The translations under genes and the position numbers were made by a program. Positions 23,463 to 60,622 of a stretch of 64,000 bases of DNA are shown here, in pieces. The DNA comes from an uncultured Clostridia bacterium (GTDB lineage: Bacteria; Bacillota; Clostridia; Christensenellales; Borkfalkiaceae), in NCBI GenBank assembly GCA_947629575.1, contig CANREF010000004.1:62001-126000 (forward strand). The letters run 5' to 3'. The notes beneath the pieces are model-generated. The model saw nothing but the letters and a program-made list of their open reading frames with translations, had not been told where the DNA came from and did no database searches. How positions within the stretch are numbered: position 1 is the first letter of the stretch; the number at the start of each line of letters is the position of its first letter.

Positions 23463-23590
23463 CGCGCTGTGCACCCCCTCCTTAGGAGGGGGGTAGGGAG
23501 GTGGTGTCCTTGGTTTCTGATATTTCACCACCTCAGTCACCTGCGGTGACAGCTCCTCCTAAGGAGGAGCCAAGGACCTTTACGGGCGCA
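23463..23590. repeat. GC-rich intergenic hairpin repeat
   Basis: Contains CACCCCCTCCTTAGGAGGGGG, CACCACCTCAGTCACCTGCGGTGACAGCTCC and CTCCTCCTAAGGAGGAG-type palindromes, the same family as at 55770-55980 and 60400-60510. It lies between the importer operon and the tRNA-Thr region. No gene is seen. Confidence 0.55.
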
Positions 23591-55772: not shown

Positions 55773-55979
55773 CGTACCCCCCTTGGCTCCCCCTTGAGGG
55801 GGAGCTGTCACGAAGTGACTGAGGGGGTGTTTGTTTTACGACACCCCTTCCGCCTCCTTCAAAGAGGGCAGCGCTTGCCCCCTCCTCAGGAGGGGGGTAG
55901 GGGGTGGTGTCCTTTGCTCTGAATGTTCACCACCTCAGTCGCCTGCGGCGACAGCTCCTCCTAAGGAGGAGCTTTTTTT
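55773..55979. repeat. Double GC-rich hairpin repeat with terminator
   Basis: Two units: CCCTTGAGGGGGAGCTGTCACGAAGTGACTGAGGGGG-type (55790-55828) and a CCCCTCCTCAGGAGGGGG to CTCCTAAGGAGGAG unit (55878-55973). The latter ends in AGCTCCTCC-TAA-GGAGGAGCT (55953-55973) plus seven T, a full intrinsic terminator. No gene. Confidence 0.65.
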
Positions 55980-56013: not shown

Positions 56014-56063
56014 TTGACAAGTTTACTTGGCAGTGCTATGATAGACATACCAAGTTTACTTGG
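56014..56063 (+). promoter_or_regulatory. Promoter with paired XRE-type operators
   Basis: TTGACA (56014-56019), 17-base spacer, TATGAT (56037-56042). ACAAGTTTACTTGG (56017-56030) lies in the spacer and CCAAGTTTACTTGG (56050-56063), a perfect palindrome, lies at the start of the transcript. Both fit repression by the XRE protein encoded at the end of the operon. Confidence 0.65.
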
Positions 56064-56077
56064 CAAAGGAGAGGAAT

Positions 56078-56476
56078 ATGGACGAAAAGCAGGAACAAAC
56101 CGAGACCGACGGAAGCGAACAGCCGCTCTCCAAAGAGGAGATCTTAGCGCGCAGCCGCAAGGAAAACGAAAGAAGCGGCGATGAGCGGGAACAGGCGAGG
56201 TGGAAGTGGGTGACCTACAGCGGCTATCTCGCCACGATCATTACCGTCGTCGCCATCGAATTTTGTTATATTCTGCTCCATCGGGCGGAAGAGTTTTTCT
56301 ATCCGATATACGTTCTGCTTGGAACAAGCATGAGCGCACAGACGACCTGTCAGGCAGTCGTCATGAAGAAGGGGAAGGGGAAGACGATCTCCATTGTCTG
56401 TGCCGCCGTGCTCATCGCGGTCACGATCGCCCTGTGGGTGCTGTTCGCCCTCTCCCTTGCGGGGATAGAACTTTGA
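56078..56476 (+). CDS. DUF6442-like membrane protein, first copy
   Basis: A 132-residue protein with a charged head sharing LSKEEILARSRKENE and GDEREQ with the next gene, and three or more hydrophobic helices (TYSGYLATIITVVAIEFCYILL, YVLLGTSMSAQTTCQAVVM, ISIVCAAVLIAVTIALWVLFALSL). ATG 56078 has AAAGGAG upstream; an in-frame TTG at 56060 falls in the operator. Function unknown. Confidence 0.75.
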   Translation: MDEKQEQTETDGSEQPLSKEEILARSRKENERSGDEREQARWKWVTYSGYLATIITVVAIEFCYILLHRAEEFFYPIYVLLGTSMSAQTTCQAVVMKKGKGKTISIVCAAVLIAVTIALWVLFALSLAGIEL

Positions 56477-56486
56477 GGAGTGTGTC

Positions 56487-56876
56487 ATGGAAGAAAATTT
56501 CAATAGCGAAGAAGAATTGAACGCCGAAGAGCCCGCGCTCTCCAAAGAGGAGATCTTAGCGCGCAGCCGCAAGGAAAACGAAAGATGCGGCGATGAGCGG
56601 GAACAGGGGCGCAAGTTGCGGGCGAAATACCTCGGATTTGTGGCGGTGGTGCTTGCGTGCGGCGTCGTTATGATGGTGCGGCTGCTTACGGAAGACGTCG
56701 TCCCTTACGATCTCATGGCGATCATGCTCACGGGTCTTGTGGCGCAGAATACCGTGGAACTGTTCGTCACCACAAATAAGACGCTGCGGGCGGTCTCGAT
56801 CGTCGCAGAAATCGTTGTTCTCGCGGCGGCGATCATGTACTGGGTGGAATGGGGCTTGTCCCTTGCGGGGAAATAG
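56487..56876 (+). CDS. DUF6442-like membrane protein, second copy
   Basis: A 129-residue paralogue of the preceding gene with the same EEILARSRKENERCGDEREQ head and three helices (LGFVAVVLACGVVMMVRLL, DLMAIMLTGLVAQNTVELFV, AVSIVAEIVVLAAAIMYWVEW). TTTGAGGAGTGTGTC is the ribosome region. The two copies share parts at near-DNA identity (56119-56167 with 56535-56583), indicating recent duplication. Confidence 0.75.
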   Translation: MEENFNSEEELNAEEPALSKEEILARSRKENERCGDEREQGRKLRAKYLGFVAVVLACGVVMMVRLLTEDVVPYDLMAIMLTGLVAQNTVELFVTTNKTLRAVSIVAEIVVLAAAIMYWVEWGLSLAGK

Positions 56877-56886
56877 GTCGGGCGAA

Positions 56887-57093
56887 ATGGACGAAAAACT
56901 TGTGCTCCGCAACCGTTTGAAAGAGGTTCGGGCGGAAAAAAATCTATCGCAGGGGGAGCTCGCCGCGCTCGTGGGCGTCTCGCGCAATACGATCTCCTCA
57001 ATCGAGACGGGACAGTTCTGCCCCACGGCGAAGCTCGCCCTCATTCTCTGCACCGCGCTCGATAAAAAGTTTGAAGAATTGTTCTATTTTTAG
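56887..57093 (+). CDS. XRE-family regulator
   Basis: A 68-residue helix-turn-helix protein (LKEVRAEKNLSQGELAALVGVSRNTISSIETGQFCPTAKLALILCTALDKKFEELFYF) that is a single Cro/CI-type domain. Probably the repressor of its own operon via the ACTTGG palindromes at 56017-56063. It follows the second membrane gene by 10 bases. Confidence 0.9.
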   Translation: MDEKLVLRNRLKEVRAEKNLSQGELAALVGVSRNTISSIETGQFCPTAKLALILCTALDKKFEELFYF

Positions 57094-57949: not shown

Positions 57950-57978
57950 GAAAAAACTCCCTTGCGGGAGCTCTTTTT
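57950..57978 (-). terminator. Terminator of the small XRE gene
   Basis: CTCCC (57959-57963) and GGGAG (57968-57972) around TTGC; on the minus strand the hairpin is followed by six T. Confidence 0.55.
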
Positions 57979-58195
57979 ATTTGTGGGGATAGGGGAGATC
58001 GTAGTCGGTCAGCCCCACGAGATAATCCAAGGAAGTATCGTAGATCTGCGCAAGCTGCACGAGCGTCTCCAACGGGATCTCCCGCTTGCCCGTTTCATAT
58101 TGCGAATAGGTGTTTTGCCCGATGTTGAGACGGTGCGATAGCTCTACTTGCGTTATGCTTCGCTCTTTTCGCAGTTCCTTTAACCGAAGTTCCAT
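57977..58195 (-). CDS. XRE-family regulator, candidate restriction controller
   Basis: A 72-residue one-domain helix-turn-helix protein (LKELRKERSITQVELSHRLNIGQNTYSQYETGKREIPLETLVQLAQIYDTSLDYLVGL). It is the size and layout of restriction-modification C proteins and is divergent from a methyltransferase gene 80 bases away. Palindromes in the shared gap (ATATCT-N7-AGATAT at 58210-58228 and TTATC-N9-GATAA at 58235-58253) are likely binding sites. Confidence 0.85.
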   Translation of the reverse strand: MELRLKELRKERSITQVELSHRLNIGQNTYSQYETGKREIPLETLVQLAQIYDTSLDYLVGLTDYDLPYPHK

Positions 58196-58209
58196 ATTTT
58201 TTATTCTAA

Positions 58210-58256
58210 ATATCTCAAAAAAAGATATTGCTATTTATCTCATTTTGTGATAAAAT
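58210..58256 (+). promoter_or_regulatory. Methyltransferase promoter with two palindromes
   Basis: TTGCTA (58228-58233), 17-base spacer, TAAAAT (58251-58256). The first palindrome (58210-58228) ends on the -35 box and the second (58235-58253) covers the spacer and the start of the -10 box, so a bound repressor would block transcription. Confidence 0.6.
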
Positions 58257-58275
58257 GTAGATCACGGAGGAGATC

Positions 58276-59238
58276 ATGGCAAGGAACGAAAGCCTGCACA
58301 AGGCGAGCGTGGCAAAGCAGGACGAATTTTATACACAGATCGCCGACATCGAGAGGGAGCTTGTCCATTACGAAGAACATTTTCGCGATAAAGTTATCTT
58401 CTGTAATTGCGACGACCCTGCATACAGTAACTTTTGGCGTTACTTTCAGCTCAAATTTTATCAACTCGGGTTAAATAAACTTGTCTCTACCCATTTCGAG
58501 CCGAACGCGCCGAGCTACAAAATGGAGATCGTGCGCAAGGAGAGGGGAGAGCAGATCGGCATCCCCGACTATGTGCAAACGCCATTAAAGGGGAACGGCG
58601 ATTTCCGGAGCGAAGAGTGCATCGAGATTTTGGAGGAGGCGGATATCGTCGTCACAAACCCGCCCTTTTCCCTGTTCCGCGAATACCTCGCGCAGCTCAT
58701 AGAGTACGAAAAGAAGTTTGTTATCATTGCGCCGCTCAACTGTGTTACCTATAAAGAAGTGTTCCCCCTTTTCAAAGGAAACAGGATTTGGTGCGGTTAT
58801 GGTTTTTTGGGCGGAAACGCATATTTTGCGACAGAGCCGAAGTACGACTATGCCGACGGAGTATATGACAGCAAGACGGGGCTTGTTAAATTTCGGAATG
58901 TTCTATGGGTGACAAATCTTGATATTCCAAAGCGCCATGAGGAATTGTCGCTTGTGAAGCAATATTGCGGTCACGAAGAGAATTATCCGAAGTATGACAA
59001 TTACGATGCAATCGAAGTCGGGAAACTTGTCGATATCCCGTGCGACTACGACGGCGTGATGGGCGTGCCGATTACCTTTCTCGATAAATATAACCCAGAA
59101 CAATTTGAAATTTTGGACATGAACCCACACTTCTTTATGTTGATACAACGAGGAGAGCCAAAGCCGAAACAACTTACATTAAAAAGTATAGGGGCGAAAG
59201 ATCCGTATGCACGTATTTTAATCAGGAGGAAATCATGA
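58276..59238 (+). CDS. EcoRI-type adenine-specific DNA methyltransferase
   Basis: A 320-residue N6-adenine methyltransferase of the EcoRI_methylase family (PF13651). The catalytic NPPF motif is at 128-131 (IVVTNPPFSLF), preceded by VIFCNCDDPAYSNFW near residue 40, FRSEECIEIL and followed by KRIWCGYG-like [25 protein letters not shown] precedes ATG. It overlaps the DUF262-HNH gene by 4 bases and has a probable controller gene on the other strand. Base and codon use look somewhat more AT-rich than the neighbours, in line with transfer. Confidence 0.9.
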   Translation: MARNESLHKASVAKQDEFYTQIADIERELVHYEEHFRDKVIFCNCDDPAYSNFWRYFQLKFYQLGLNKLVSTHFEPNAPSYKMEIVRKERGEQIGIPDYVQTPLKGNGDFRSEECIEILEEADIVVTNPPFSLFREYLAQLIEYEKKFVIIAPLNCVTYKEVFPLFKGNRIWCGYGFLGGNAYFATEPKYDYADGVYDSKTGLVKFRNVLWVTNLDIPKRHEELSLVKQYCGHEENYPKYDNYDAIEVGKLVDIPCDYDGVMGVPITFLDKYNPEQFEILDMNPHFFMLIQRGEPKPKQLTLKSIGAKDPYARILIRRKS

Positions 59239-60314
59239 AAATAGAACTGCAAATGATCCCCGTGCGGGAGGTGTTCGAGGGGTACAAAAACAGCGATGAA
59301 GAGGGGGTCGTAGGCTTCGGCGGGAAGCTGAATATCCGCCCCAAATACCAGCGCGAGTTCGTCTATAAGGACAAACAGCGCGACGCCGTTGTGGAAACTG
59401 TCCGTAAGAATTTCCCGCTCAATGTCATGTATTGGGTGAAAAACGGCGACGAGTACGAAGTCCTCGACGGACAGCAGCGGACGCTCTCCCTCTGCGAATA
59501 TATCAAGGGGAATTTCTCCATTGACTATCGCTATTTTTTCAACCTCGAAAGAGAGGAACAAGAGCAAATTCTCGGTTATGAACTCATGGTCTACTTCTGC
59601 GAGGGAACGGATCGTGAGAAGCTCGATTGGTTTCGCATTGTGAACATCGCGGGGGAAAAGCTCACCGAGCAGGAACTCCGCAACGCCGTGTATGCGGGGC
59701 CGTGGCTCTCGGACGCAAAAAGATATTTCAGCAAGACGAACTGTCCCGCAAAACTCCTCGGGGAGGACTTCATGAGCGGAAGCCCCATTCGGCAGGACTA
59801 TCTCGAAAGGGTGCTCCTTTGGATCTCGGAGGGGAAGATCGAGGACTATATGTCCCTTCATCAGTTCGCCTCCAACGCCAACGAGTTGTGGCTGTATTTT
59901 ACCAACGTCATAAATTGGGCGAAGGTGCTTTTTCCCACCGTCAGGCGGGAGATGAAAGATGTGCCGTGGGGGACGCTCTATCATAAATTCCACCAAAACG
60001 CCTATGACGCCGCCGAACTCGAAGCGCGCATTTCCGGGCTCATGGCGGACGACGATGTGACCAAGAAATCGGGGATCTATGAATATCTCTTTGACGGCGA
60101 GGAAAAGCATTTGAGCATCCGCGCTTTCACTCCTGGAATGAAGCGGGGAGCGTATGAACGGCAGGGCGGCTTCTGCGCACATTGCAAAAAGCAATTTGCA
60201 CTCTCTGAAATGGAGGCCGACCATATCACGCCATGGCACGCGGGCGGGAGGACGGTCGCGGAGAACTGTCAGATGCTCTGTAAGGCATGTAACAGGATCA
60301 AATCGGGAAAGTAA
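59235..60314 (+). CDS. DUF262 and HNH endonuclease protein
   Basis: A 359-residue nuclease candidate. The N-terminal DUF262/ParB-like domain has D78-G-Q-Q-R82 (VLDGQQRTLSL) and GEKLTEQELRNAVYAG, as in GmrS-type modification-dependent restriction enzymes. The C terminus is an HNH domain with zinc-type cysteines C314/C317 and C349/C352 around EADHITPWHAGG. GmrSD enzymes use DUF1524 rather than this HNH. Overlap with a methyltransferase gene suggests a two-gene restriction system. Confidence 0.87.
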   Translation: MKIELQMIPVREVFEGYKNSDEEGVVGFGGKLNIRPKYQREFVYKDKQRDAVVETVRKNFPLNVMYWVKNGDEYEVLDGQQRTLSLCEYIKGNFSIDYRYFFNLEREEQEQILGYELMVYFCEGTDREKLDWFRIVNIAGEKLTEQELRNAVYAGPWLSDAKRYFSKTNCPAKLLGEDFMSGSPIRQDYLERVLLWISEGKIEDYMSLHQFASNANELWLYFTNVINWAKVLFPTVRREMKDVPWGTLYHKFHQNAYDAAELEARISGLMADDDVTKKSGIYEYLFDGEEKHLSIRAFTPGMKRGAYERQGGFCAHCKKQFALSEMEADHITPWHAGGRTVAENCQMLCKACNRIKSGK

Positions 60315-60622
60315 AAACAAGGCCGAGGTCACTCGGCTTTTTTGTTTACCGCTTTTGATTTTGGGTATATATAAGGTGAGAAATACGGGAAAAGAAAGTT
60401 CACTAAGCCCTCTCCAAGGAGAGGGTGCCCCCGCAGGGGGCGGGTGTGGTGTTCTTCCACCCACCACCTCAGTCTCGCTCCGCTCGCCAGCTCCTCCTTA
60501 GGAGGAGCCGAGAACTCCCATGGGCGTCACGCCTTTTTCCGTCACGGGTCCTCGGTGGCTCGACATGACAAAAAGCCCAACTACATACCAATTAACATCC
60601 TATTTCAAAAAGGAGGAAAAAT
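60315..60622. repeat. Intergenic repeat region, no gene
   Basis: Contains GCCGAGGTCACTCGGC (60323-60338) with T run as a terminator for the nuclease gene, then CCTCTCCAAGGAGAGG, GCCCCCGCAGGGGGC and GCTCCTCCTTAGGAGGAGC hairpins of the family seen at 55773-55979. The clpB ribosome site AAAAAGGAGGAAAAAT follows. No CIRCE element is seen. Confidence 0.6.

Follow-up and report, generated by a model that had tools for sequence, protein, structure and literature searches.

What tells a restriction nuclease where to cut, when the methyltransferase encoded beside it appears to exchange the segments that may set the target? We have analyzed this question for a small module in a 64,000-nucleotide stretch of DNA (the window; contig CANREF010000004.1, positions 62,001 to 126,000) from an uncultured Clostridia bacterium of the Borkfalkiaceae. 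The module comprises a regulator gene of the XRE type on the minus strand and, on the plus strand, an operon of two genes that encode an EcoRI-type DNA methyltransferase (M) and a nuclease with DUF262 and HNH domains (R). A preliminary description of this DNA had reported this gene order, together with a 4-base overlap between M and R and two palindromes in the M promoter, and both the coordinates and the domain matches were confirmed here. That description left a choice between a type II-like system with an uncommon nuclease and a new use of the methyl mark. The choice misses what the present comparison suggests: M has exchangeable segments of target-recognition type, to which R is indifferent, and for this reason M probably supplies the specificity of R.

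Variation in the methyltransferase and in the nuclease

The window module was aligned with its nearest relatives, designated L134, L003, L004 and L005. The R proteins differ from each other by scattered substitutions, and in the same alignment two segments of M, at about residues 173-213 and in the C-terminus following GVPITFLDKYNPEQF, are near-totally replaced. We refer to the middle segment as TRD1 and to the C-terminal segment, or cassette, as TRD2 (TRD, target-recognition domain), from their predicted role in setting the DNA target. In a set of 104 M-R pairs (103 of them distinct), 14 TRD1 types and 40 TRD2 types occur in 74 combinations; the counts of cassette types hinge on the similarity cut of 0.45 that was used. 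The EcoRI-like cassette KFRKGxDDKDL, for example, is found in five systems with four middle types.

The set was derived from 140 loci with an M start, 105 of which had R, the M core and a cassette and 104 of which were within length limits; 16 duplicate loci were removed by hand before the tests. L134 is the same as L003 in the M core and in R, and the tests were rerun without it (n=103). The pairs were partly selected by similarity of R to the window R, as the best 80 of at least 563 R relatives in a scan of GTDB species genomes, which narrows the range of R. Thirteen of these 80 loci were dropped, with M missing, cut by a contig edge or interrupted by stops, or with a failure in length or motif. 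They include three Gracilibacteria-type records (L010, L016, L041) in which M is full of in-frame TGA, as is R in L016 and L041; bacteria of this type translate TGA as glycine. Only four of the 11 repeat-bearing loci described below (L050, L074, L122, L131) entered the tests, each with the cassette next to R.

Across the 104 pairs, the identity of R tracks that of the M core (Spearman 0.54), and no correlation was detected between R and TRD1 (partial correlation 0.05, permutation p 0.21) or between R and TRD2 (-0.03, p 0.68). Without the duplicate, the respective values are 0.54, 0.05 (p 0.18) and -0.03 (p 0.66). Among 55 pairs of loci whose R proteins share an identity of at least 0.85, TRD2 is swapped in 45 and both segments in 32, and both are alike in 10. 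For instance, L004 and L005 are 95% identical in R and 96% in the M core, with TRD1 alike and TRD2 different; the R proteins of L008 and L018 are 94% identical beside M proteins in which both segments differ; and the window and L134, which belong to the same genus, share 88% identity in R with both M segments different. The window, L004 and L005 have three different R-adjacent cassettes and R proteins 84-95% identical. At the level of single alignment columns, no R column exceeded the permutation maximum against the M segments (p 0.11, 0.34). This test has some power, because it recovered an association of the cassette, TRD2, with M residue 241 (0.41, where 95% of permutation maxima were below 0.25). 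Judged by these comparisons, M is modular and R shows no detectable covariation with either segment. Unless these segments do not set the target, a nuclease with a fixed target could hardly stay near-constant while M swaps both of them, which argues that R is guided by M.

The conventional alternative is a Type II system in which the HNH nuclease has a fixed site of its own, and in which the M segments drift or have another role, or a few R residues suffice for retargeting. We regard it as unlikely. PADLOC does model both R and M as Type II, R.EcoRI is the partner of M relatives on a plasmid of E. coli, and the M-then-R order, the ATGA overlap and a controller-like gene, all present here, are usual in Type II systems. 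However, R lacks covariation with the M segments at the level of the whole protein, of 30-residue stretches and of single columns, R proteins of 94-95% identity stand beside M proteins with different segments, and a single R follows three cassettes in the loci to which we now turn.

Relatives with a repeat in M

In Selenomonas flueggei (L050, 4314-6004), the 3' part of M contains 32 copies of GACA inside the first cassette, and all three reading frames are open from the repeat. One frame carries the first cassette to its end; the remaining two lead on into second and third full cassettes, each with the usual C-terminal motif, and the stop of the last frame overlaps the start of a single R. Three cassette-ending frames are found in eight loci (L050, L063, L002, L122, L124, L144, L168 and L151), and L074, L131 and L142 have a repeat with two cassette ends. 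The repeats are ACAG x12 in L122, GACA x12 in L124, AACGG x21 in L144, CTCAG x12 in L168 and CACCGGA x4 in L151; the contigs of L063 and L002 begin inside the repeat, and L168 has masked bases upstream of it. Each repeat unit, of 4, 5 or 7 bases, is frame-shifting. A scan of a subset of the loci for units of 3-6 bases in at least six copies returned four loci, with the repeat always inside M. One R follows the three-cassette M in seven of the eight loci, and R lies within the fetched DNA in 10 of the 11 repeat loci; the exception is L151, where no R was found in the 1.05 kb that follow M. The R of L002 is 89% identical to the window R, and four of the 29 M-bearing genomes in a sample of the window's order (G421, G431, G460, G490) are of the repeat type.

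The M body is complete in seven of the loci. The present frame joins the first cassette in L050 and L144, the second in L122 and L151, and the last in L124 and L074, variation of the kind expected if the tract moves. As a nuclease with a fixed target could hardly serve three alternative methylases in one genome, these loci also suggest, with the same proviso on the role of the segments, that R is guided by M. The likeness to phasevarion methyltransferases lies in the non-triplet repeat in the M gene; phasevarions, however, are ON/OFF, whereas here three frames lead to alternative cassette ends.

The main alternative for these loci is that R has a fixed site that fits the adjacent cassette only, with R translationally coupled to the last frame and the other frames being methylase-only states. 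In agreement with such coupling, the last frame's stop overlaps the ATG of R by 4 bases in L050, L002, L124 and L144 and by 11 bases in L063 and L122, and the other frames stop well upstream of R. Yet the adjacent, last cassette is the very one that was tested, and R does not covary with it; nor do the window, L004 and L005 agree in this cassette, for all the likeness of their R proteins. We consider a coupling of this kind distinctly improbable.

The gene pair in other genomes and known systems

Among the best 80 of the R relatives, 77 have M, or the C-terminal part of it, in the locus. L007 and L075 lack M and have only about 200 bases of upstream DNA, and L027 has 2.3 kb upstream without M, which sits on another contig of that genome. 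In 65 of these 77, M and R are directly adjacent (gap -17 to +19); in the other 12, more than 60 bases separate them, often with one gene between. By eye, the intervening gene resembles T5orf172/GIY-YIG in two loci of distant phyla (L009, 1324-1926; L048, 1959-2564) and DinD in two others (L019, 5147-6001; L055, 5148-5996). In a phylum sample of 398 genomes, picked independently of R, full-length R adjoins M in 7 of 7 cases; two further genomes gave R matches, one (G159) a broken R that has no M and the other a weak match, to a different DUF262 protein. Eight genomes of this sample have M above the cut-off, seven of them with R and the eighth with an M fragment. The R remnant of G159 (L175, contig C26, 2239-3095) has stops, flanking DNA on both sides and, by eye, a transposase-like neighbour. 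Within the window's order (248 genomes), R adjoins M in 24 of 25 cases and the remaining contig ends at R; since 29 genomes carry M and 25 carry R, M without R does occur. One genome of this sample (G647) has one TGA in each of M and R. In the Selenomonas flueggei family (151 genomes), 31 of 33 distinct R lie on the contig of M, at most 3.4 kb away, the two exceptions being a fragment (G757:C81) and an intact R (G798:C33). The preliminary description would have been refuted by M and R being unlinked in all other genomes, but across the 80 R loci and the phylum, order and family samples the genes are linked.

The identity of R to the window R is mostly 55-68%, with one group near 40%. As the pair occurs on plasmids and in many phyla, it appears to move widely. 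Two complete EcoRI-type methyltransferases stand in tandem before one R in L084 (G361), L105 and L155 (G776). This arrangement could mean that one R serves two targets, or that the site is asymmetric.

The window M belongs to the M.EcoRI family, with a full-length match to PF13651 (EcoRI_methylase, E 6.3e-121, residues 7-319). Its catalytic motif NPPF, invariant in 82 aligned M proteins, is intact. R has the architecture DUF262 (GmrSD_N, ParB/Srx fold), helical region and HNH; in the window R, PF03235 is matched at residues 34-98 (E 3.4e-18) and PF01844 at residues 314-357 (E 2.4e-12). The HNH residues are invariant in 95 aligned R proteins except for C317, which is conserved in at least 90% of them and invariant in a set of 76 R. 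The domain search of the window R reported neither DUF1524, the GmrD-type nuclease, at E 0.01 nor a helicase domain. In PADLOC, R and M are matched over their full length by REase_II PDLC03418 (E 1.8e-144) and MTase_II PDLC03297 (E 9.8e-114), respectively. These labels are annotation, in which a modular M and a dependence of R on M are not described.

The gene pair itself is thus already known, both from the PADLOC Type II models and from Sulfitobacter indolifex, where an EcoRI-methylase/HNH pair on pDSM14862_g was called a possible novel restriction-modification system (PMC9025767). That M is stated to be 52% identical to M.EcoRI, the target of which is GAATTC; in S. indolifex GAATTC is not methylated, and a unique motif, GGCATC, is a candidate only (PMC9025767). 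These are among the few members for which specificity data exist. The S. indolifex pair corresponds to our L082, with M followed by a DUF262 protein (as annotated) that is 57.9% identical to the window R; the modularity of M, guidance of R and slippage were not met in the description of that pair (PMC9025767). A different partner is seen in L102 (E. coli plasmid pU90-3), where a relative of M with 49% identity stands beside annotated R.EcoRI; the M family therefore has at least two unrelated nuclease partners. The L102 protein agrees with the window M in core, layout and C-terminal motif, but the window M differs from it in TRD1 and TRD2 and has a DUF262-HNH nuclease as its partner.

The preliminary description had also considered that a DUF262 nuclease might read modified bases and so conflict with a resident M. 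R shares with GmrSD the GmrS-type DUF262 domain with DGQQR, and the DUF262 and ParB/Srx fold is that of GmrSD, BrxU and SspE; BrxU degraded modified, not unmodified, DNA (PMC8565348). On these grounds R could be a Type IV-like enzyme that attacks modified foreign DNA, with M a passenger or the source of a mark that R avoids. But Type IV GmrSD has no resident methyltransferase, whereas R is nearly always linked to an EcoRI-family methylase; R also differs from GmrSD, BrxU and SspE in its 359 residues and in having HNH PF01844 in place of DUF1524, and the M-less R of G159 is a broken remnant. We find this very unlikely, and the expected conflict with M is not supported. Only a slight chance is given to a scheme in which methylation of self by M primes or licenses R, as reviewed for SspE with phosphorothioate. 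R is in the same class of DUF262 nucleases as SspE, but a constant R would need to sense N6-methyladenine (m6A) in many sequence contexts, and the sequences do not call for this.

The layout of the module is summarized in Table 1. The stop codon of M and the start codon of R overlap in the ATGA at 59235-59238. The 100 bases of the M promoter contain eight exact inverted repeats of at least 6 bases (overlapping ones counted separately); 200 mononucleotide shuffles gave 0.8 on average, and 0.5% of them reached eight. By eye, L003, L004, L005 and L134 have two palindromes of other sequence at the same position, and an XRE gene is also divergent upstream of M in L003, L004 and L134. The XRE protein of the window is likely a repressor of the M-R promoter. 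A helix-turn-helix (HTH) regulator and promoter palindromes are present as candidate elements of control by a C protein, with the regulator divergent from the operon. With these operator-like sites and the conserved pairing, the regulated restriction-modification design proposed earlier gained support.

Table 1. Positions of the module's features in the window
Feature	Position	Strand	Remarks
XRE/Cro-type HTH regulator gene	57977..58195	-	72 aa; HTH_3 E 1.4e-17; divergent from M-R operon
Operator-like palindrome 1	58209..58229	n/a	AATATCT-7-AGATATT; in M promoter region
Promoter-like sequence for M-R	58228..58256	+	-35 TTGCTA, 17-base spacer, -10 TAAAAT; by eye
Operator-like palindrome 2	58234..58254		TTTATC-9-GATAAA; over -35/-10 spacer and part of -10
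M, EcoRI-type methyltransferase gene	58276..59238	+	EcoRI-family adenine DNA methyltransferase, 320 aa; NPPF at residues 128-131
TRD1, middle variable segment of M	58792..58914	+	residues 173-213; one of 14 types
TRD2, C-terminal variable cassette of M	59107..59235	+	residues 278-320, after GVPITFLDKYNPEQF; one of 40 types
R, DUF262+HNH nuclease gene	59235..60314	+	359 aa
DGQQR motif of R	59466..59480	+	residues 78-82; invariant in 95 aligned R; NTP-hydrolysis motif of GmrS/BrxU
HNH nuclease domain of R	60174..60305	+	C314, C317, D329, H330, N344, C349, N353
Intrinsic-terminator-like hairpin and T run	60322..60343	+	3' of R; from sequence

Import of the module, as suggested earlier, is supported by two observations. 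The GC content at third codon positions is 0.564 in M, 0.644 in XRE and 0.694 in R, and higher in the comparison genes of the window (tyrS 0.817, UPF0029 0.746, CmpB-like 0.76, clpB 0.784). Nine congeners were searched, and in all six that strongly match both genes flanking the module these lie on different contigs. Parts of a hairpin-rich stretch at 60395-60600 recur at 23526-23577 and 55928-55972; the stretch is therefore a dispersed element, found also away from the module. Upstream of the module, two paralogous genes for DUF6442 proteins stand in tandem (56060-56476 and 56487-56876); after them, a second short XRE-like reading frame, recognized by eye, ends near 57093.

How R may find its target

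We assign a probability of roughly 0.58 to the reading that the module is a mobile, XRE-controlled restriction-modification system in which R takes its target from M, in a Type III-like manner with a GmrSD-type nuclease, and that its relatives switch specificity. In this mobile two-gene system, XRE would repress the M-R promoter, and M would methylate adenine in host copies of a target set by TRD1 and TRD2. R would be an NTP-dependent HNH endonuclease without specificity matched to the M segments, its target being supplied by M. Either an M-R complex or the loading of R by M at unmethylated sites would lead to NTP use by DUF262 and to cutting by HNH. In this scheme the DUF262 domain, which is of ParB/Srx type, would switch R in an NTP-dependent way from target binding to cutting, and methylation of the site would block cutting. 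More speculatively, R may resemble the CTP-gated ParB/Noc clamps: it may load where an M site is unmethylated, and cut after it has moved. In the relatives, slippage of the repeat in M would pick among up to three TRD2 cassettes, so that specificity switches with R unchanged.

In the linkage of M and R genes the system resembles Type II. The exchangeable specificity segments of M and the constant R suggest a likeness to the Mod and Res of Type III, and movement of TRDs is described for Type I S and Type III M genes (PMC3983042). It differs from Type III in that there is no helicase-type Res, the nuclease is DUF262-HNH and M is of the EcoRI family.

Several points weigh against this M-guided reading. 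The name of the target-recognition segments is drawn from their variability and swapping, and the structure model of TRD2 is of low confidence. The positive control of the column test is circular for TRD1, M residue 241 against TRD2 being the one independent case. Among 22 stretches of 30 residues in R, three gave p 0.04, 0.04 and 0.05 with TRD1 (partial r no higher than 0.09), and one gave p 0.05 with TRD2 (partial r 0.08), all uncorrected. No fusion of M and R was seen among the loci. The intact R of G798:C33 has 382 bases to the contig end with no M within them, and in two of the 77 loci with M an interrupted M precedes a stop-free R match: L035 (125-769; TAG in M) and L036 (4939-5996; M split over two frames). 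In L131 the present frame joins no cassette, which leaves a truncated M; in these three loci R may tolerate the loss of M, or the assemblies may be in error. Since no frame but the last overlaps the start of R in the switching loci, the translation of R may differ between states. Finally, the window M has a single cassette and no non-triplet repeat was seen in it, so that the proposed switch is not in the window copy.

The literature searches made here turned up neither the modularity of M nor the indifference of R nor the three-frame selector. A more specific form of the M-guided reading, which we hold at somewhat under even odds, joins them: a constant NTPase-HNH protein of the ParB/GmrSD fold would be loaded by a two-segment M, and the repeat of 4, 5 or 7 bases would act as a three-position selector, with each reading frame ending M in a different recognition cassette, so that a clonal population could have three methylomes and three restriction barriers with a single nuclease and no recombination. 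Such a selector, if true, would be a new switch of DNA specificity, with complete alternatives instead of ON/OFF states. The locus raises two questions: what directs a DUF262 nuclease to its cutting site, and whether EcoRI-type methylases use two separable segments to read DNA. Should R follow M, dozens of natural specificities would be served by one compact nuclease, and retargeting would need only one or two short segments of M to be swapped. It would then be easier to understand why similar nucleases have spread over so many phyla, and restriction enzymes that can be retargeted would have a simple platform.

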